This document shows, piece by piece, positions 14,396 to 22,169 of a DNA stretch of 40,286 nt; position 1 is the first letter of the stretch, and each line of letters begins with the position of its first letter. A program made the position numbers and the translations under genes. The notes beneath the pieces were generated by a model that saw only the letters and a program-made list of their open reading frames with translations, searched no databases and was not told the origin of the DNA. The DNA is taken from NCBI GenBank assembly GCA_017405805.1, contig JAFQZU010000030.1:1-40286 (forward strand), given 5' to 3'. The DNA comes from Lachnospiraceae bacterium. Lineage in GTDB: Bacteria > Bacillota > Clostridia > Lachnospirales > Lachnospiraceae.

Positions 14396-14875
14396 ATGCA
14401 GCCTTTGTATACAGCCGAGACAGACCTGAGCCCGGAGGACTATAAAAGATACGCGCGCAGGATGCAAAAGCTCCCTGTCCTGCACATCGCCGTCATTGTC
14501 ATTGCGCTCATATGGATCCTGGTCTCCGGCGCCGTGAATCTCGGCACCGGCAGAACGGCGCTCGGCATCTTCATGCTGGCCGTCGTCGCGGTGTGCCCGG
14601 TCCTGTACCTGATCGGCATCAAAAGACAGGTAGAGCGCGGTTATGAAGGGATCTGCAAGGCGGGCGGGAACCGCTTCCGGATCAGTTTCTACGAGGATCA
14701 TCTGGAGACGGAAAACGCGTCCAACCATGGCAGCTATAAGTATGCGGAGCTCTGCGCCGTGATCGATACGGAGGATGACGTCTATCTGGAGGTAAAGCCG
14801 GGGAGCTGCGTGATCGTGCAGAAAAAGAACTGTTCGCCGGAGCTGCTCGAATTTCTCCGCGGTCTGAAAAAATAA
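14396..14875 (+). CDS. Two-helix membrane protein, YcxB-like
   Basis: A 159-residue protein with two adjacent helices (about 28-48 and 55-76) and a C-terminal cytoplasmic domain. The pattern FRISFYEDHLETEN...YKYAELCAVIDTEDDVYLEVKPGSCVIVQKK resembles the YcxB-like domain (PF14317), a small beta-rich domain of unknown function common in Firmicutes membrane proteins. ATG 14396 follows GGAAGG. It stands alone between the divergent redox operon and the SH3-peptide genes, and has no evident link to either. A TATAAT-like box at 14362-14367 may belong to its promoter, but no good -35 is visible. Confidence 0.65.
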   Translation: MQPLYTAETDLSPEDYKRYARRMQKLPVLHIAVIVIALIWILVSGAVNLGTGRTALGIFMLAVVAVCPVLYLIGIKRQVERGYEGICKAGGNRFRISFYEDHLETENASNHGSYKYAELCAVIDTEDDVYLEVKPGSCVIVQKKNCSPELLEFLRGLKK

Positions 14876-14894
14876 AATATTTTGTCTTTTGCCG

Positions 14895-14924
14895 TGGATA
14901 TGGGCAGGCGTTCCCGTATATAAT
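14895..14924 (+). promoter_or_regulatory. Tentative promoter of the double-glycine SH3 peptide gene
   Basis: TGGATA (14895-14900), 18-nt spacer, TATAAT (14919-14924). The -10 is perfect but the -35 is only a partial match. No ECF-type GGAAC/CGT pair was recognised, so control by the neighbouring sigma factor is not shown. Confidence 0.35.
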
Positions 14925-15016
14925 AATGTAAGCAAGGCAGAGAGCGAAAGAAATGGCGCCCACTGCCTGTATTGTAAAAAGAATGATTAACCAGTTTTAC
15001 CAAGGAGGACATGAGC

Positions 15017-15304
15017 ATGTCAGAAGAATTCAAAAAGGTTGACGAGCAGGAACTGGCAGAAGTAGCTGGTGGTGTAAATGGCAATCAGGGCTCTTATTAC
15101 GGCCCCTGGAAGACAGTCAGAAATCTGAAGAAGGGCTGGCTGGCACTCAGAACCGCTCCCAGATATGATTACAGCAATGAGATCGGCCATCTCTACAATG
15201 GCGACGATGTCCAGATCCGCGGCAAGGCCAGCGGCGACTACATCTGGGTATGGGCTCCCAAGCTCAACAAGAGCGGCTATGTGAACAGGAATTTCATCGG
15301 ATAA
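15017..15304 (+). CDS. Double-glycine-leader peptide with an SH3-like mature domain
   Basis: A 95-residue precursor. Residues 1-19 form a leader of the class cut by C39 peptidases, ending VDEQELAEVAGG with Gly18-Gly19 at the predicted cleavage site. The 76-residue mature part has no cysteine and from about residue 38 looks like a bacterial SH3 domain: WLALRTAPRYDYSNEIG, then LYNGDDVQIRG, a Trp-Val-Trp strand and a GYVNRNFIG ending. Bacterial SH3 domains often bind peptidoglycan. ATG 15017 is 8 nt after AAGGAGG; ATG 15011 is too close. The C39 ABC transporter and NHLM-type export genes lie just beyond on the other strand, so this is the likely cargo. Whether it is an antimicrobial, a signal or a wall protein is unknown. 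Confidence 0.85.
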   Translation: MSEEFKKVDEQELAEVAGGVNGNQGSYYGPWKTVRNLKKGWLALRTAPRYDYSNEIGHLYNGDDVQIRGKASGDYIWVWAPKLNKSGYVNRNFIG

Positions 15305-15340
15305 TAATGCTGCCGCATTTGCGGAGGAAATGAGGAGCGC

Positions 15341-15565
15341 ATGGAAGACATCGGCAAGTTGCTGAGGGGGGCGGACTTCTCCAAGGAGACAGACCTGAAA
15401 GACCGCCTTGCCGGGCAGCTGTTTGAGGTGCAGCATGCAGGAAAGAGCGTTCCTTTTTCCAGACTCTCCGGAGAACAGCTGCTGCAGGTCACTGCGGCCA
15501 AAGGAATTCCCGAAAGCATGCTGCCGAACGATCTGCTGGATGATAAGAAAGACATCAGGAGATAG
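15341..15565 (+). CDS. Small protein of unknown function, cargo- or regulator-like
   Basis: A 74-residue soluble protein with a good ribosome binding site (GAGGAG) 36 nt after the SH3 peptide gene, so very probably on the same transcript. It begins MEDIGKLLRGADFSKETDLKDRL, a charged helical segment, and contains LSGEQLLQVTAA (42-53). This recalls the LSxxELxxVxGG pattern of exported-peptide leaders but has Ala-Ala instead of Gly-Gly. It has no membrane helix, which argues against a typical bacteriocin immunity protein. It could be a second export substrate, an adaptor, or a partner of the nearby sigma factor. I do not recognise a named family. Confidence 0.7.
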   Translation: MEDIGKLLRGADFSKETDLKDRLAGQLFEVQHAGKSVPFSRLSGEQLLQVTAAKGIPESMLPNDLLDDKKDIRR

Positions 15566-15611
15566 CAGCGGCATACAGAAGGCAGATTGCATCAAAGGTT
15601 AACGACAGAAT

Positions 15612-15661
15612 AAAGGAAAAGAGATCATTCGAGGATATCGGTGAGATCTTTTCCTTTTTCT
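15612..15661. terminator. Terminator between the convergent small genes and sigma gene
   Basis: AAAGGAAAA (15612-15620) pairs with TTTTCCTTT (15649-15657), with GATC/GATC (15623-15626, 15645-15648) continuing the stem after a 2-nt bulge. T-rich tails exist on both strands. The right half lies inside the end of the sigma-factor gene. Confidence 0.6.
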
Positions 15662-16149
15662 ATTTCCCTGCACTTGGAGAGAAGACGCCTGTGCCGTTCG
15701 CTGACCGCCTTGGGCGTGATCCCGAGGATCGCGGCGATCTGCGGATTCTTCAGATCCTCGAAGTAGATCATACCAAGGAGCTCCCGCTCCGCGGGCGTGA
15801 GGCGGTGCAGAATAAAGCGAACCTCTTTGTTGACGGGGTCCGCCATGATGTCGTAGTGATCCGTCGAAGACGGCTCCTGCACGTTTTCATCGGAAAGAGA
15901 GGCGGTATCCCGTCTTCCCTTCCCCCTGAAATAGTCGATGAGCGTGTTGCGTGCGATATGGGTGAGCCAGGTGCGCACAGAAGCTATGGAAGGATCGAAC
16001 TTGTCGTAATTGATAAACGCCTTATAAAAAATGTCGCTGACAAGATCTTCCGCCCGTTCCCGGTCCAGGAGCTGGGCGTAGACATAGTTGTAGACGGCGG
16101 AAAACTGTTCTTCGTAAACGGAAGAAAAATCAGCTTTGTCTTTTTTCAT
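15625..16149 (-). CDS. ECF-type sigma-70 family sigma factor
   Basis: A 174-residue sigma factor with only regions 2 and 4. Region 2 (about 10-80) contains YNYVYAQLLDRERAEDLVSDIFYKAF and VRTWLTHIARNTLIDYFRG, the core-binding and -10-reading helices. Region 4 (about 110-165) contains LTPAERELLGMIYFEDLKNPQIAAILGITPKAVSERHRRLL, the -35-reading helix-turn-helix. It is the last gene of the minus-strand exporter operon, only 14 nt after the second ABC gene and with its own GGAG site. This position suggests it controls the exporter, the SH3 peptide gene, or both. No recognisable anti-sigma gene is adjacent; the 74-residue protein at 15341 is a conceivable partner. Confidence 0.9.
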   Translation of the reverse strand: MKKDKADFSSVYEEQFSAVYNYVYAQLLDRERAEDLVSDIFYKAFINYDKFDPSIASVRTWLTHIARNTLIDYFRGKGRRDTASLSDENVQEPSSTDHYDIMADPVNKEVRFILHRLTPAERELLGMIYFEDLKNPQIAAILGITPKAVSERHRRLLSKCREIEKGKDLTDILE

Positions 16150-16163
16150 ACAGTCCTATCTCC

Positions 16164-18341
16164 TCAGGTGAGCTGCCGTTTTACCAATTCTGCAAATAAT
16201 CCGTCTTTTTTCATCAATTCCTCATAGGTCCCCTCCTCCTGGATCTTTCCGTCTCCCAGATAGACGATGCGGTCGCAGTGCCGGATCGTGGAGAGTCTGT
16301 GGGCGATGACGATGCGTGTGCAATGCAGTTTGTCCAGTGCCTCCGTCACCTTCTTCTGGGATATATTATCCAGGGCGGAAGTCGCCTCGTCAAAAATCAG
16401 CACGGACGGCTTGGGCGCCACGGCCCGCGCGATCATCAGCCGCTGCTTCTGCCCGCCGGAGATGCCGCCCTGCCCCTCGGACAGGAAGGTATTCATTCCC
16501 ATCGGCATTTCCCGGATATCATCCGCGATGCAGGCGATCTCGGCTGCTTCCCACGCCTCTTTCATGGACAGGTGCGGGGCTGACAGAGTGATGTTGGAGT
16601 AGATATCGCCCTGGAAGAGTCCGCTGTCCTGCATGACCGTCCCGATCTGGCGGCGCAGAGATTTGACGTCGATCTTATTGAGGTTGCGTCCCGCATAGAA
16701 TATGGCGCCCTGTTCCGGCGTCTCAAAGCCGAGAAGGAGACGGACCAGGGTGGATTTGCCGCACCCGGTCCTGCCCACGATGGCGATATATTCGCCCGAG
16801 TGGATCTTGAGCGAGAGGTCGTTCACGATATAAGGGCTGTTTTCGTCATAGCGGAATTTGACGTGCTGCAGCTCGATGGGTCCCTTCAGCGAAGTGATGA
16901 TCTCCCGGTTCTCATCCGTCTCGGGCGCCGTCTCCAGTATGGGGGCGGCCATCTGAAGGATGGGCTTTATTTTGGCGAGTACTGTCACGATGGAGAAGAG
17001 GGAGCCGAAGGCTGCCGCCACGGAGCCGTATGCGGAGCTGAAGGCAAGGTAGCCGGCAGGCGTAATACCGCTGCTGATGGCGAGAGAGTACAGCACGACC
17101 GTTCCGGCCAGTTCAATGGAGGTCGAGATCACGCCGCTGAGCTTTAAGAGAAGCGGCGGATTGAACTGGAGGGCAGCGGACTTGTTGTACTGGAAGGCCC
17201 AGTGGGCGTAAGCGCGCTTTTCGGCGCCGGCAAGGCGGATCTTCTGAACGCCGTTGACCAGGGCAAACGCGAGGCCCAGGCACTTCGAGTTTTCAAGAAG
17301 GAGCTCTTTCTGGCGCCTGGTCTCCAAAAACACGGTGCAGAGCGACACGAGGATCCCGGCAAGGATGATGCACAGGGAAGGGACGACCAGCACCGGGGCA
17401 AAGCGGAAGATCTGCGTCACGTACAAAAGAGACATCAGGGAAGAGAGCCCCGTGGAGAAAAATACATTCACGATGGAACTGCACAGCGTGTTTACGGATT
17501 CGGCCCTCGAGGAGAGTTCGCCCGCGTTGTATTTGCGGAAGAACCCGGCCGGAAGGGACAGAATGCGCATCATGGTGGCCGATTCCACGTTCATGGACAG
17601 CCGCATATCCATGCGGTTGGAGATCAGCTCCGAGGAGGCGCCGATCAACAGTTCACTGATACTGATGGAGAGCAGAAAGACTGCCAGCGCCATGAGCACG
17701 GAAACCTCTCCCGTCTGGATCACGTCGTTGAAAAGGATGTAGGTCAGCTGCGGAACGAGCAGGCCGACCATGGTCGTCAGGAGCGAGATCCCGAAGGTCA
17801 GGAGGTAATCGGAGAGCTGCAGGCAGCTCAGGATATATCGAAGGAGATCTTTGATCGAAAGACTCTTCTGGGGGAACGGGCGGTAGAAGCAGTACGCCTC
17901 CTGTGCAAACTTCCCGAGGTCGGCCTGGGCTATGTGGAAGGTATTCCCCGCCTCGGGGTCATGACAGGTGTACCCTGAAGGCAGGGAAGGGATGAAGGCG
18001 ACGGGCTTGCCCGATTCCGCGTAAAAGCCAAGATATGCCCCCAGGGCGTCTTTCTGCCAGCTGCCTTTGAGTTCCACTTTCCGGTACATGATCCCGTAAG
18101 GGCGCAGGGCATAGTCAAGCTGGTCCTCCAGGCGTTCGATGCTGTCCGGGATCTCCCGGTAGGAAAGCCCGTAATAGCGAAGGATCTCGCCGATGGCGCT
18201 CTCCGCCATATCGATGTCCTTGACGGCCGTATAGTGGCCCCTGGACCCCATAACGGTCCGCGCGGCCTCCTGTAATGATCTTTGAAAGAGTTCGTCGTCC
18301 CCAAGCCTGCGCTTGCGGAGCTGATCGTCAAACCAATGCAT
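16164..18341 (-). CDS. NHLM-type bacteriocin export ABC transporter, permease/ATPase subunit
   Basis: A 725-residue half-transporter. The N-terminal ~150 residues (MHWFDDQLRKRRLGDDELF..., RPYGIMYRKVELKGSWQKDALGA) match the non-peptidase N-terminal domain of the NHLM-system ATP-binding protein (TIGR03797 type). Six helices follow (about 165-430). The ATPase domain has Walker A GRTGCGKST, signature ISGGQKQR, Walker B VLIFDEATSALD and the switch histidine in IVIAHRLST. It lies 12 nt after the C39 transporter gene with its own ribosome binding site, so the two probably form a heteromeric export complex in the membrane. In described systems the partner subunit cuts the leader and both drive secretion. 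Confidence 0.92.
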   Translation of the reverse strand: MHWFDDQLRKRRLGDDELFQRSLQEAARTVMGSRGHYTAVKDIDMAESAIGEILRYYGLSYREIPDSIERLEDQLDYALRPYGIMYRKVELKGSWQKDALGAYLGFYAESGKPVAFIPSLPSGYTCHDPEAGNTFHIAQADLGKFAQEAYCFYRPFPQKSLSIKDLLRYILSCLQLSDYLLTFGISLLTTMVGLLVPQLTYILFNDVIQTGEVSVLMALAVFLLSISISELLIGASSELISNRMDMRLSMNVESATMMRILSLPAGFFRKYNAGELSSRAESVNTLCSSIVNVFFSTGLSSLMSLLYVTQIFRFAPVLVVPSLCIILAGILVSLCTVFLETRRQKELLLENSKCLGLAFALVNGVQKIRLAGAEKRAYAHWAFQYNKSAALQFNPPLLLKLSGVISTSIELAGTVVLYSLAISSGITPAGYLAFSSAYGSVAAAFGSLFSIVTVLAKIKPILQMAAPILETAPETDENREIITSLKGPIELQHVKFRYDENSPYIVNDLSLKIHSGEYIAIVGRTGCGKSTLVRLLLGFETPEQGAIFYAGRNLNKIDVKSLRRQIGTVMQDSGLFQGDIYSNITLSAPHLSMKEAWEAAEIACIADDIREMPMGMNTFLSEGQGGISGGQKQRLMIARAVAPKPSVLIFDEATSALDNISQKKVTEALDKLHCTRIVIAHRLSTIRHCDRIVYLGDGKIQEEGTYEELMKKDGLFAELVKRQLT

Positions 18342-18353
18342 GAATTCTTCCTT

Positions 18354-20531
18354 CTATTCGTTAATCACCAGCGTTTTGTACAGGCCGTCCTGCGCGAACA
18401 GCTCCTCGTGGGTGCCGCGCTGTACGATCCTGCCGTGATCCAGAACGATGATCTCGTCGCAGTCCCGGATCGTGGAGAGACGGTGAGCCACCATGATCAC
18501 GGAGATGCCGCGGTCCCGGATCGCGTTCATGACCTTGTACTCGGTCTGCGCGTCCAGCGCCGATGTGGCCTCGTCCAAAATGATGATCGTGGGATCCTGC
18601 GCCAGGACTCTCGCCAGCTCCAGCCTCTGGCGCTGGCCGCCGGACAGATCCTTTCCGCCCTCTGTCAGCCGCCCGTCGTAGCCCTTGTCGCGCTTTATGA
18701 TGTCGTCGTGAATCTGCGCGTCCCTGGCCGCCAGTATACATGCGAAGTCCTCGATGGAACTGTCCCAGAACCGGATGTTTTCCATGATGGAGTCTTCAAA
18801 AAGCGTGATGTCCTGGTCCACGACGGCGAGGGAGCCGGTCATCACGCTGCGGCTTATCTCGCTGCGCGGCTTTCCGTCAAAAAGAATCTCCCCGCTCCAC
18901 GGCTCATAAAGGCCGGAGATCAGCTTGGCAACGGTGGACTTTCCGCATCCGGAGGCGCCGATGACGGCTACACGGCTTCCCGGCTTCATGGACAGATTAA
19001 ACCCTTCTATGAGCGGCGGGGCAAATTTTACGTAGCCGAAAGTCAGGTCCCGGATCTCCAGGGCACCGCTGAGTTTTACATATTCCGCTTCATCCTTCAT
19101 CGGCGGCTCGTTCCCGGAGACCGCGTCCGGGTATTCCATGACGTCGTCCACACGCTCCATATCCGTGCGCATCTCCTGGATGACCTGCCCTGCGGACAGA
19201 AGGGATGTCACAGGGTTCATGAAGGAGTTCAGATAGAGCTGGAAGGAATAGATCAGGCCGACCGTAAAGTTACCTTTGATCGTGAGATAGACGCCGATGA
19301 ACATGATAAAAAGATTGGCGATCGTATCCACGACCGAAGGGATCAGGCCGTAATACACATTGATCCTGTCAAATTTAACCTGCTGGGCGTTCACGGAAGC
19401 CTGCAGGCCCGACCATTTTCTGAAAAAGCCCGTCTCGGAGCCGCTGGACTTGATGGTCTCGATCATGCGGATCCCGGTCATGGTGGTACCCGACAGCTGC
19501 CCGGCGTCCCGCTGCTGGACGCGCGAGATATTGACGCGCATCTCGGAGACTTTTATGGAAACGACCAGGTTGATGACCATACAGAGCAGACCCACTGCCG
19601 TCAGCGGAAGGCTCTGCCGGATCATGACGATCAGGTAAAAGACCATCATGAACGCGTTCAGGACGAGCGGGCCGAACACATTGACGACGGTATCCGCGAT
19701 GGAGGCGTTGGTCTGCTGCCTCTGCAGAAGATCGCCCGCCATGCGCTGGGAAAAGAAATCCATGGGAAGACGCAGGAGCTTCCACATGAAGGTGGTATTG
19801 CCGATGACATCCATTTTGGCGCGGATCCGCAGAGAATAGACTGCCTGCAGCCAGTTCAGCACGATCTGCAAAAAGGTCAGGATCGACAGGATAATGATAA
19901 AGGGCACCTTCCATCCCGGATTGCGTCCCGAGAGGAGTCTGTCCAAAAATACCCGGCCCATAGCCGGATTGATCAGTCCGAACAAAGAGATGATCAGGGA
20001 GATCAGAAGGACGAAGACGATGGCGGCCTTTGCCCCGCGAAGCCTCCGCGCGGCAAATTCCAGCGTGCTCTTGCGGTGTCCGGACGGCTTAAAGTCTTTC
20101 CCCGGATGCAGCATGATAAAGACGCCGGTAAACCCTTTGTCGAACTCCTCTTCCGTGATGCTGATCCTGCCGCGGGCGGGATCGTTGATCCAGACTTTCC
20201 CGTTCTTAAAGCCGTCCAGCACCACGAAATGGTTGAATTCCCAGTGCACGATGCAGGGAAACTCCCCGGCGCTTTTGAGCTGGGCCGGTTCCGCCTTGTA
20301 GGCGTCCGCCTCCAGGCCGTACCAGCGGGCGGCGTTCATGACATAGAGCGCGTTGGATCCGTCGCGGGAGACCGCGCAGTCGGAGCGGACCTGCTCCAGA
20401 GGGACCCATTTGTCGTAATAAGCCAGGACCATGGTCAGGCAGGCGGCGCCGCATTCCAGCGCCTCCAGCTGCATGATGACAGGGACGTCCGCCACCTTCC
20501 CCTTGACCGGCTGTTTGATCGAAGCTGCCAT
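18354..20531 (-). CDS. C39 peptidase-containing ABC exporter (PCAT), NHLM type
   Basis: A 725-residue peptidase-ABC transporter that removes a double-glycine leader and exports the peptide. The C39 domain (about 12-140) is intact: oxyanion Gln21, catalytic Cys27 in LECGAACLTMVLAYY, His101 in FNHFVVLDG and Asp117 in INDPARGR. Six helices (about 165-420) follow, then an ATPase domain with GASGCGKST, LSGGQRQR and IIILDEATSALD. It matches the peptidase/ATP-binding subunit of NHLM systems (TIGR03796 type). It starts 9 nt after the HlyD-like gene (AAGGGGG site). The SH3 peptide at 15017, with VAGG at its leader end, is the obvious substrate. Cysteine and histidine conservation predicts an active protease. 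Confidence 0.95.
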   Translation of the reverse strand: MAASIKQPVKGKVADVPVIMQLEALECGAACLTMVLAYYDKWVPLEQVRSDCAVSRDGSNALYVMNAARWYGLEADAYKAEPAQLKSAGEFPCIVHWEFNHFVVLDGFKNGKVWINDPARGRISITEEEFDKGFTGVFIMLHPGKDFKPSGHRKSTLEFAARRLRGAKAAIVFVLLISLIISLFGLINPAMGRVFLDRLLSGRNPGWKVPFIIILSILTFLQIVLNWLQAVYSLRIRAKMDVIGNTTFMWKLLRLPMDFFSQRMAGDLLQRQQTNASIADTVVNVFGPLVLNAFMMVFYLIVMIRQSLPLTAVGLLCMVINLVVSIKVSEMRVNISRVQQRDAGQLSGTTMTGIRMIETIKSSGSETGFFRKWSGLQASVNAQQVKFDRINVYYGLIPSVVDTIANLFIMFIGVYLTIKGNFTVGLIYSFQLYLNSFMNPVTSLLSAGQVIQEMRTDMERVDDVMEYPDAVSGNEPPMKDEAEYVKLSGALEIRDLTFGYVKFAPPLIEGFNLSMKPGSRVAVIGASGCGKSTVAKLISGLYEPWSGEILFDGKPRSEISRSVMTGSLAVVDQDITLFEDSIMENIRFWDSSIEDFACILAARDAQIHDDIIKRDKGYDGRLTEGGKDLSGGQRQRLELARVLAQDPTIIILDEATSALDAQTEYKVMNAIRDRGISVIMVAHRLSTIRDCDEIIVLDHGRIVQRGTHEELFAQDGLYKTLVINE

Positions 20532-20540
20532 AGTTCCCCC

Positions 20541-21017
20541 TTACCTGGAAAACAAAAATGAGATGGGGTGGAGCGATTCGGTGGTGACGACCGCCTCATA
20601 GTACCCGTCGTTCAGGTAACAGTCCGTGCGCAGAACGATCACAGACTGTCCCTGCTGCAGGTAACCCGATTTATAGAGGCTGGGGTCGTCCGTTGCATCC
20701 ATAGTCTTCCGGTTGTTGTCGGAAGGCTCGGCCAGCATCTCTACGTCTCCGATCTGAATATGGATCTCGGGGTCCTCCAGGTTGATATCCTTCTCCCGTA
20801 TATAGCAGCTGATCGTGCTGTCCCGCACGATGGCGGGGGCAGTCACATTGGTTACCAGTTTGCCGAAAATGCCCCAGACGATCATGCCGCCGAGGATCAG
20901 TACGATGGAGAGCAGGACCAGCCAGACGCCCGGCCCCGTTACGTGGAGATATTCAGCCAGGTGATCCGGCGAGGAGATCTGCTCCAGATTTTTCTCTCGA
21001 AATAATTTGTCGCTCAT
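20541..21017 (-). CDS. NHLM-type secretion protein, short HlyD-like adaptor
   Basis: A 158-residue single-helix protein. It starts MSDKLFREKNLEQISSPDHLAEYLHVTGPGVWL, then a membrane helix (about 34-56), then an extracellular region of about 100 residues with a barrel-like GQSVIVLRTDC strand. This matches the HlyD-family secretion protein of NHLM systems (TIGR03794 type) but is shorter: the usual coiled-coil and lipoyl hairpin are missing, so it may only bridge the transporter to the cell wall. ATG 21017 is preferred to TTG 21035 because GAAGGA lies 10 nt upstream of it. First gene of the exporter operon, behind a good promoter. Confidence 0.85.
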   Translation of the reverse strand: MSDKLFREKNLEQISSPDHLAEYLHVTGPGVWLVLLSIVLILGGMIVWGIFGKLVTNVTAPAIVRDSTISCYIREKDINLEDPEIHIQIGDVEMLAEPSDNNRKTMDATDDPSLYKSGYLQQGQSVIVLRTDCYLNDGYYEAVVTTESLHPISFLFSR

Positions 21018-21063
21018 GTATTCTGCTTCCTTCAAAGCTTATTCTGTGTCAAAACCAACTCCC

Positions 21064-21092
21064 ATTATAGCATAGAATGAAGTGTTTGCTAA
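21064..21092 (-). promoter_or_regulatory. Predicted promoter of the exporter operon
   Basis: On the minus strand: TTAGCA (21092-21087), 17-nt spacer, perfect TATAAT (21069-21064), 47 nt before the HlyD-like start. It resembles a vegetative promoter rather than an ECF one. Confidence 0.55.
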
Positions 21093-21182
21093 GAAAGACA
21101 GGGAAACACTATATTTTGTGGAAAGATGTGTTACAATAACCCAGAAGAAGTATGCATTTCATAAAAACAAAGGAGATATAGA

Positions 21183-22169
21183 ATGAGAAAAACAGCTGTT
21201 CTGGCTGCCGTGGCCGCTCTGGTGCTGATGACATCGGTCGGCACCGCCGCGGCACAGACCGTCTTTTCGGACGTCCCTGACCCGAAGGACAGTGTCTACT
21301 GGGCGGTCGGGAAGAATATCATGTCGGGCAAGGGCGACGGCACTTTTGACGTGAACGGTCCCGTGACGCGCGGCCACATGGCCGTGTTCCTCTGGAAGGC
21401 GGCCGGAAAGCCCCAACCCGCCGGGAGCGCGAAGACCTTCACGGATGTCCCGGCCTCACATCCTTACTACAAGGCAGTGCAGTGGGTGAGCAGCAGGGGG
21501 ATCTCCACCGGACGGGCGGACGGAAGTTACGGCGTCAGCCTCCCCTGTACCAGGGGACAGACCGCGGTCTTTTTGTGGAAACTCAAGGGCAGGCCCGCGG
21601 CCAAAGGCTCCGCGCAGGCGTTCGCTGACGTTCCGGCGGATCATTCCTACTATAAGGCGGCGCAGTGGGCGGCGGAAAACGGGATCCTGTCCGCGGACGC
21701 AAAGGGAAATGCCGGGATCAATGCCGTCTGCACGAGAGGGGAGTTCGCCCGTATGCTCCAAAAAGCGGTCGGCGCACAGGCGGCGGCTGGGCATAAGCAC
21801 ACCTGGGTGGCGGACACCAAGGTGGTACATTATGAAGAGCTCGGTCACTATGAGAAGCAGCAGATCAGTACCAGGACCGTCGTGGACAGGGAAGCCTGGG
21901 ACGAACCGCTCTACATCCGGGTCTATTACTGCGACGAGTGCGATTACAACACGGCGGGGACGGTGGATGAGATCACGGAGCACATCGACGGGGAGCACGG
22001 CGGCGACGCCGGGTTTACCATGGAATATTCCGACGCCGGCGTGATCAAACATGATCCGGAGACCCATGAGGAGCCGGTATACGGAAACGTGTGGGTAGTA
22101 GACCAGGAGGCGCATGACGAGACGGTGACGACAGGATACCGGTGCTCGGGATGTGCCGCGCAGAAGTAA
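21183..22169 (+). CDS. S-layer homology (SLH) domain protein with Cys-rich C-terminal region
   Basis: A secreted 328-residue protein. A signal peptide (1-24, cut near TAAA-QT) is followed by three SLH repeats (about 27-75, 84-137, 146-198) with the typical FxDVP, YxAVxW and TRGxxAxFLWK elements; these bind pyruvylated wall polymers. After a His-rich hinge (GHKHTW) comes a C-terminal region of about 120 residues with acidic patches and two CxxC pairs, YYCDEC (Cys250, Cys253) and CSGC (Cys321, Cys324), that could bind zinc. It has AAAGGAG before the ATG. It diverges from the exporter operon across a 165-nt gap, which may or may not mean a shared function. The C-terminal domain is not one I can name. 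Confidence 0.88.
   Translation: MRKTAVLAAVAALVLMTSVGTAAAQTVFSDVPDPKDSVYWAVGKNIMSGKGDGTFDVNGPVTRGHMAVFLWKAAGKPQPAGSAKTFTDVPASHPYYKAVQWVSSRGISTGRADGSYGVSLPCTRGQTAVFLWKLKGRPAAKGSAQAFADVPADHSYYKAAQWAAENGILSADAKGNAGINAVCTRGEFARMLQKAVGAQAAAGHKHTWVADTKVVHYEELGHYEKQQISTRTVVDREAWDEPLYIRVYYCDECDYNTAGTVDEITEHIDGEHGGDAGFTMEYSDAGVIKHDPETHEEPVYGNVWVVDQEAHDETVTTGYRCSGCAAQK

Follow-up and report, generated by a model that had tools for sequence, protein, structure and literature searches.

The window analysed here is the entire contig JAFQZU010000030.1 (40286 bp) of a Lachnospiraceae bacterium (assembly GCA_017405805.1), whose genome is 84% complete. Read from its sequence, the segment 14893-21092 holds two transcription units facing each other. 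The plus-strand unit consists of a gene for a double-glycine (GG) precursor with an SH3-like mature part, followed by a gene for a 74-residue protein, p74; the minus-strand unit, running from 21035 down to 15625, encodes a HlyD-like stub, the peptidase-containing ATP-binding cassette (ABC) transporter (PCAT) ABC1, a second ABC protein, ABC2, and an extracytoplasmic function (ECF) sigma factor. On balance, we consider that this locus is best read as part of an ECF-sigma-controlled PCAT regulon that secretes small wall-binding domains. The locus is real, recurrent and richer than our first-pass annotation stated, and the core idea of that annotation, a secretion route for an SH3-domain protein, stands. 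Gene layout, family assignments, co-occurrence, predicted fold, leader geometry and promoter statistics were all obtained by computation.

The precursor gene (15017-15304, plus strand) encodes 95 residues from the ATG at 15017 and is preceded by the Shine-Dalgarno sequence AAGGAGG (15002-15008, plus strand); an alternative in-frame ATG at 15011 would give 97 residues. Its 19-residue leader, MSEEFKKVDEQELAEVAGG (15017-15073, plus strand), ends in the ELAEVAGG sequence recognized in the first pass and agrees with the pattern of C39 peptidase substrates, i.e., glycines at -2 and -1 and hydrophobic residues at -4, -7 and -12 (V-4, L-7 and V-12). Because leaders were selected with a pattern in which -7 and -4 are set, the agreement at these two positions is circular; position -12 is independent of the selection and is hydrophobic in 53 of the 53 collected precursor leaders. 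A hydrophobic -12 residue fits the C39 leader pattern given in the accessible parts of PMC6959990 and PMC6363468. The mature part, Val20-Gly95 (15074-15301, plus strand), comprises 76 residues with a charge of +6, a pI of 9.8 and, as previously claimed, no cysteine. Structure prediction, proposed in the first pass as a check, returned an SH3 fold for this part, despite a Pfam SH3_3 match (E 0.0025, 18.4 bits) under the gathering score of 27; at E<=0.001, SH3_3 matches 25 of the 52 precursor family members, the window protein being outside those 25. Among the top-ranking fold matches, many are to the SH3b portions of wall hydrolases. No NCBIfam family was common to more than three of the 52 SH3 precursors, and a PHROGs search returned nothing useful. 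At 8.7 kDa, the mature part is equivalent to approximately 10,500 cubic angstrom, below the 15,000 cubic angstrom given for the PCAT1 cavity in the accessible part of PMC6959990; therefore, size alone would be no obstacle to export, folded or unfolded.

An origin of these precursors by leader swap from Sec-secreted proteins was considered and rejected. In a domain tree that rests on few columns, one branch (support 80/90) splits 54 of 58 GG domains from 42 repeats without a GG leader, and the remaining four GG domains lie on long branches among those repeats. At L101:741-2025, a GG-SH3 gene adjoins the gene of a three-SH3-repeat protein of the same family with, by eye, a Sec-like N-terminus.

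All four genes of the operon described in the first pass are present. ABC1 (18354-20531, minus strand), a peptidase-permease-ATPase, matches TIGR03796 with 894.9 bits, above the cut-off of 853.3, and aligns to PCAT1 (4ry2) over residues 19-718 (E 3.3e-94). Its C39 peptidase domain (PF03412, E 4.0e-36; 20097-20486, minus strand) keeps Cys27, His101 and Asp117, confirming the triad reported as intact, together with Gln21; we take the former three to be the catalytic Cys-His-Asp and the latter to be the oxyanion glutamine. For ABC2 (16164-18341, minus strand), TIGR03797 is by far the best family, with 690.6 bits, slightly below the cut-off of 709.4. The HlyD-like adaptor (20541-21035, minus strand) had rightly been called short: its match to TIGR03794 (E 2.8e-8; 33.1 bits, cut-off 156.2) is confined to positions 2-55 of 421, i.e., the membrane end alone, and ATG 21017 seems a likelier start than TTG 21035. 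The final gene (15625-16149, minus strand) encodes the sigma factor, with regions 2 and 4 only, as in the ECF class (Sigma70_r2, 8.2e-16; r4_2, 5.4e-9). Upstream of the operon, a candidate sigma-70-like promoter, TTAGCA-17-TATAAT (21064-21092, minus strand), was assigned by consensus match and is one of 12 such matches in the region, with 4.0 expected. In the window's own genome, at its 84% completeness, two C39 proteins were found, both NHLM ABC1 proteins.

The association between precursor and exporter was examined across 62 genomes from the genus and, at the level of the family, in a sample of 299. Within the genus, relatives of the SH3 precursor (a tally that includes multi-domain matches) occur in 29 genomes, and all 29 are among the 35 that carry the C39 family (hypergeometric 4e-12). 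A leader is readable in 28 of the 29 (hypergeometric 2e-11 for these), the sole match of G007 having none. Among genomes of at least 90% completeness, C39 is present in 8 of 8 with the precursor versus 11 of 26 overall, or in 7 of 7 without G007 (p 5e-4). One genome with a GG-SH3 gene, G006, has no ABC1 at E<=1e-150 and shows a C39 frame of 500 amino acids at C249. In the family-wide sample, ABC1 of the NHLM type occurs in 52 of the 299 genomes, and leader-covering precursor matches occur in G000, G142 and G287, which are among the carriers, and in G071. The latter, in which two GG-SH3 genes occur and C39 is absent, was considered as an exception and judged to be contamination. The two G071 contigs concerned (L172 and L173), from a metagenome-derived genome, are 99.3-100% identical to G039 DNA.

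Physical linkage, set beforehand as a test of the idea, recurs as well. A GG-SH3 gene lies within 3.1 kb of 11 of the 44 ABC1 matches, in at least three gene orders and at least three places in the ABC1 tree (a short search, no bootstrap, with a long window branch). The linked genes lie upstream of the HlyD gene, follow ABC2 or ABC1, or, as in the window, are convergent with the exporter; one further GG-SH3 gene lies 8 kb from an exporter (L098). Some genomes carry several unlinked copies.

Based on comparison among relatives, the sigma factor appears to belong to a sigma-p74 module, overlooked in the first pass, whose promoter motif also marks cargo genes. Orthologues of the sigma factor, 59-64% identical, occur in 15 other genomes of the genus; C39 is present in 16 of 16 sigma genomes (p 1.5e-5), and a p74 relative lies near sigma in the same 16, window included. 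The sigma factor as a fixed member of the exporter operon was rejected, since in none of the 15 other sigma genomes of the genus (drafts) do the two share a contig. Elsewhere in the family, p74, sigma and exporter genes lie within one stretch in G141, G313, G322 and G294, with the order HlyD-ABC1-ABC2-sigma in G141 as in the window; in G302, p74 and sigma are together, apart from the exporter, and in G434, G440 and G218 no sigma was seen beside p74. The p74 profile matches 9 of 397 family genomes; the seven in the 299-genome sample, own genome included, all carry NHLM ABC1, and G434 and G440 are outside that sample.

The p74 protein itself (15341-15565, plus strand) ends in LSxxxLxxVxAA, or more fully LSDxELxxVxAA(G), with the spacing of a C39 leader and AA replacing GG. 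A leader score computed without the GG columns finds its best segment directly before AA in 17 of 19 p74 proteins (shifted in L148 and L184), and in four of them, including that of the window, the score was reached by 22-41 of 500 shuffles. The model of p74 is predicted to be helical at low confidence (predicted local distance difference test, 62.7; predicted template modelling score, 0.25).

The upstream regions of p74 in 12 relatives have in common the sequence 5′-TCATGGA-N16-CGTATATAG-3′ with small variation. In the window, a putative ECF-sigma promoter, 5′-CGTGGA-N16-CGTATATA-3′, is located upstream of the SH3 gene (14893-14922, plus strand); it has one mismatch to 5′-CATGGA-N16-CGTATATA-3′ and is the sole window match at up to two mismatches, with 0.10 expected. 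A position weight matrix (PWM) built from the p74 promoters of 11 relatives, the window not being in the training set, gives a single clear peak in the window at 14887-14930 (score 19.0; next, 10.2; at most 10.0 in 20 shuffles). Training sites score 39-47, which marks the window site as a weaker variant. Across 1.41 Mb of loci, the non-training sites above 14 were the p74 promoters of G058, G053 and G005, the window site and one stray site at 14.0. An exact CGTGGA-N16-CGTATA also precedes a GG-PepSY gene located at this genome's other exporter. A core motif, TGGA-N15-17-CGTA, for which the background is 0.015 per 300 bases, lies no more than 300 bases upstream of 11 of 20 GG genes of sigma genomes versus 0 of 47 of other genomes (Fisher 1.3e-7), or, counted by genome, 9 of 14 versus 0 of 16 (1.4e-4). 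Four of 71 rows were left out of this count: three frames longer than 200 amino acids, and the open reading frame (ORF) at window 6933, an internal start of a 328-residue frame. In view of the p74 partner and the motif, the possibility that the sigma factor is a mere neighbour is less likely.

Sigma-type sites also precede other genes. In G141, one stands before three GG peptide genes, and one of the two peptides tested matches Nif11 with 22.1 bits, below the gathering score of 23.8. At L203:9025-9960, a sigma-type site is followed by three GG peptide genes, with one of two tested close to Nif11, and a p74-like ORF ending in SAGG. A further site occurs in six sigma-genome loci; the gene behind it was read in four, near sigma-p74 (L150:10614-11405, L154:453, L158:15537 and L159:665), and is apparently of one membrane-protein family, the L150 copy of which matches Bax inhibitor-1.

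Taken together, these data suggest the following model. A housekeeping-type promoter would drive the HlyD stub, ABC1, ABC2 and, as the last gene, sigma, which in turn would read CRTGGA-N16-CGTATA-type promoters before cargo genes, namely the SH3 gene with p74 and the GG-PepSY gene at the second exporter. The leader would dock in the C39 domain and be cut after Gly19, releasing the 76-residue SH3b domain outside, where it would most likely bind peptidoglycan or the cell wall. That the cargo leaves the cell through this or a sister PCAT is very probable; that sigma drives the cargo promoter is probable, and wall binding by the SH3b domain is reasonably likely. Binding of sigma to the motif, its specificity, cleavage, export and wall binding are the steps that we infer from the computed results.

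Several observations weigh against this model. The statistics ignore kinship, the genomes being related and descent uncorrected; for 33 of the 44 exporter matches, the nearest 3.1 kb contain no GG-SH3 gene (several contigs end nearby), and sigma lies on a contig other than that of every ABC1 match in the 15 other sigma genomes. As to the promoter, the window holds the sole cargo gene with a PWM score above 14 in the 1.41 Mb, and the PepSY site scores 8.9, no better than the window background; because the PWM fails to single out this site, we hold our confidence in the sigma step, and overall, lower. The core motif was defined after sight of the window and PepSY sites; with the own genome left out, 9 of 18 GG genes of sigma genomes have it, against 0 of 47 of the others (p 1.5e-6). 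Moreover, 9 of the 20 GG genes in sigma genomes have no core, including all four of G005, and GG genes also occur in 16 genomes for which the cut used gave no orthologue of sigma; therefore, sigma is not needed for cargo as such. Finally, mature charges across the GG-SH3 precursors range from -7 to +10, and the 66-residue cargo of PCAT1 is unstructured inside the cavity, according to the accessible part of PMC6959990.

Around the GG-SH3 genes, ORFs within 6 kb were clustered; the listed families, at most 45 and each found in four or more loci, include many shadow frames. The recurrent neighbours are exporter genes, a GG zinc-ribbon family (five loci) and apparent backbone genes or shadow ORFs. 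No recurrent immunity-like or modification-enzyme family was found among the families listed, from which fast-evolving small partners could escape; this agrees with the first-pass statement that neither kind of protein accompanies the locus and makes a classical bacteriocin less likely. A Shine-Dalgarno-led ORF within 200 bp downstream is absent at 43 of 53 GG-SH3 genes, in a loose scan that missed p74, and 4 of the 10 such ORFs found are the exporter HlyD. In the window, a YcxB-like gene (14396-14875; Pfam 22.9 versus 23.3) is located 141 bp upstream of the SH3 gene. None of the ORFs in the compared loci is related to it, which makes it a less likely, though conceivable, immunity gene. A gene for an S-layer-homology protein (21183-22169) is divergent from the exporter operon.

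Other potential cargo was observed. Downstream of the second, NHLM-type exporter of the own genome (contig C30) lies the GG-PepSY gene (L009:13571-14004). GG zinc-ribbon-like proteins, recognized by eye from their cysteine pairs, directly adjoin GG-SH3 and exporter genes (L073:518-859, L081:978-1319, L085:9485-9793, L096:10267-10608 and L100:10567-10896). At L103:2338-13166, nine short, bacteriocin-like GG genes (50-60 amino acids) surround one divergent exporter, and their peptides end in AAI, SAI, ASI or GSI. Judging cargo status from leader and place, exporters of this type seem to transport small ordinary domains of several kinds.

The SH3 protein might instead be an antagonist, i.e., a bacteriocin-like, wall-targeting product of a bacteriocin-type export system. 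Antimicrobial or signal peptides are the known products of PCAT systems (accessible parts of PMC6363468 and PMC2887384), the mature part in the window is cationic, the L103 exporter locus carries bacteriocin-like peptides, and the leader bears a weak resemblance to Bacteriocin_IIc (15.5 bits against a gathering score of 27.1). Nevertheless, the protein has no catalytic domain, the clustering yielded no recurrent immunity family, most GG-SH3 genes have no small downstream partner in the scan described, some genomes hold several unlinked copies, and the wide range of mature charge counts against this reading too, which we regard as unlikely. Somewhat less likely still, the protein could serve at the surface as a signal or an adhesin-like coat by which cells are marked or linked, without acting on the wall itself. 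Multi-SH3-repeat proteins of the same family, with Sec-like signals by eye, occur in relatives, and linkers and copy number vary, as such a role would allow; on the other hand, there is no receptor or two-component family among the eight window proteins scanned, and the best fold matches are often those wall-hydrolase SH3b parts.

It might also be argued that the neighbourhood is incidental, the exporter having other cargo and the SH3 protein being exported by the second PCAT or never. Most GG-SH3 genes are indeed unlinked to exporters in the stretches examined, and the second PCAT of this genome has PepSY cargo of its own. We nevertheless give this reading little credence: linkage recurs in three or more gene orders, every genome of the genus with the precursor also has C39, and one promoter type is common to the SH3 gene and the sigma module. 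Secretion of a wall-binding domain under sigma control thus remains the reading that we favour.

Among known systems, PCAT1-CtA of Clostridium thermocellum (4ry2) is, like the window exporter, a C39-ABC exporter, with a cargo of 66 residues versus 76 here, both behind a double-glycine leader; an ECF sigma factor, a second ABC protein and SH3 cargo are not described in the accessible part of PMC6959990. The NHLM/NHLP export system has the same three exporter families in an operon (TIGR03794/03796/03797; Haft et al. 2010, PMC2887384, in its accessible part). In contrast to that system, no NHLP/Nif11 precursor or leader and no modification enzyme was found among the eight window proteins scanned (14396-22166), HlyD is reduced to a membrane stub and the cargo is a globular domain. 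The SH3b domains of phage lysin Psm (4krt), LytB and NlpC/P60 enzymes differ from the stand-alone single domain described here, which has no catalytic part and carries a PCAT-type leader. Class II bacteriocins with C39 exporters have leader type and exporter type in common with the window, whereas the mature part here is larger and globular and no recurrent immunity gene was found. ECF-type sigma factors of the TcdR/UviA group switch on toxin or bacteriocin genes. Likened by description, not by sequence, that group likewise has a dedicated sigma beside a secretion product; in the window, sigma is encoded within the operon of the PCAT, and GG genes unlinked to it carry its putative motif. In the open-licence PMC literature, we found no paper that describes SH3 cargo for a PCAT, nor one that places double-glycine genes under an ECF sigma factor.

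As a highly speculative extension, to which we attach a low probability, the locus could be an envelope-protection circuit in which sigma induces the secretion of decoys (SH3b, PepSY) that bind the producer's wall and thereby protect it against lytic enzymes with similar domains, and in which p74, a leader mimic with AA for GG, acting on C39 or sigma, reports exporter load, such that cargo expression tracks export capacity.

The family names that fit the window exporter label it a bacteriocin exporter; if our favoured reading is true, the label "bacteriocin" would mislead in some annotations of Lachnospiraceae from gut and rumen. With the promoter motif, some of the cargo genes could be predicted, and the sigma-p74 pair would make control of the exporter testable. 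More broadly, the genus would export small ordinary domains (SH3b, PepSY and zinc ribbon) by such exporters, in part controlled by a dedicated ECF sigma factor, and proteins would have a second, small route of secretion to the Gram-positive surface.

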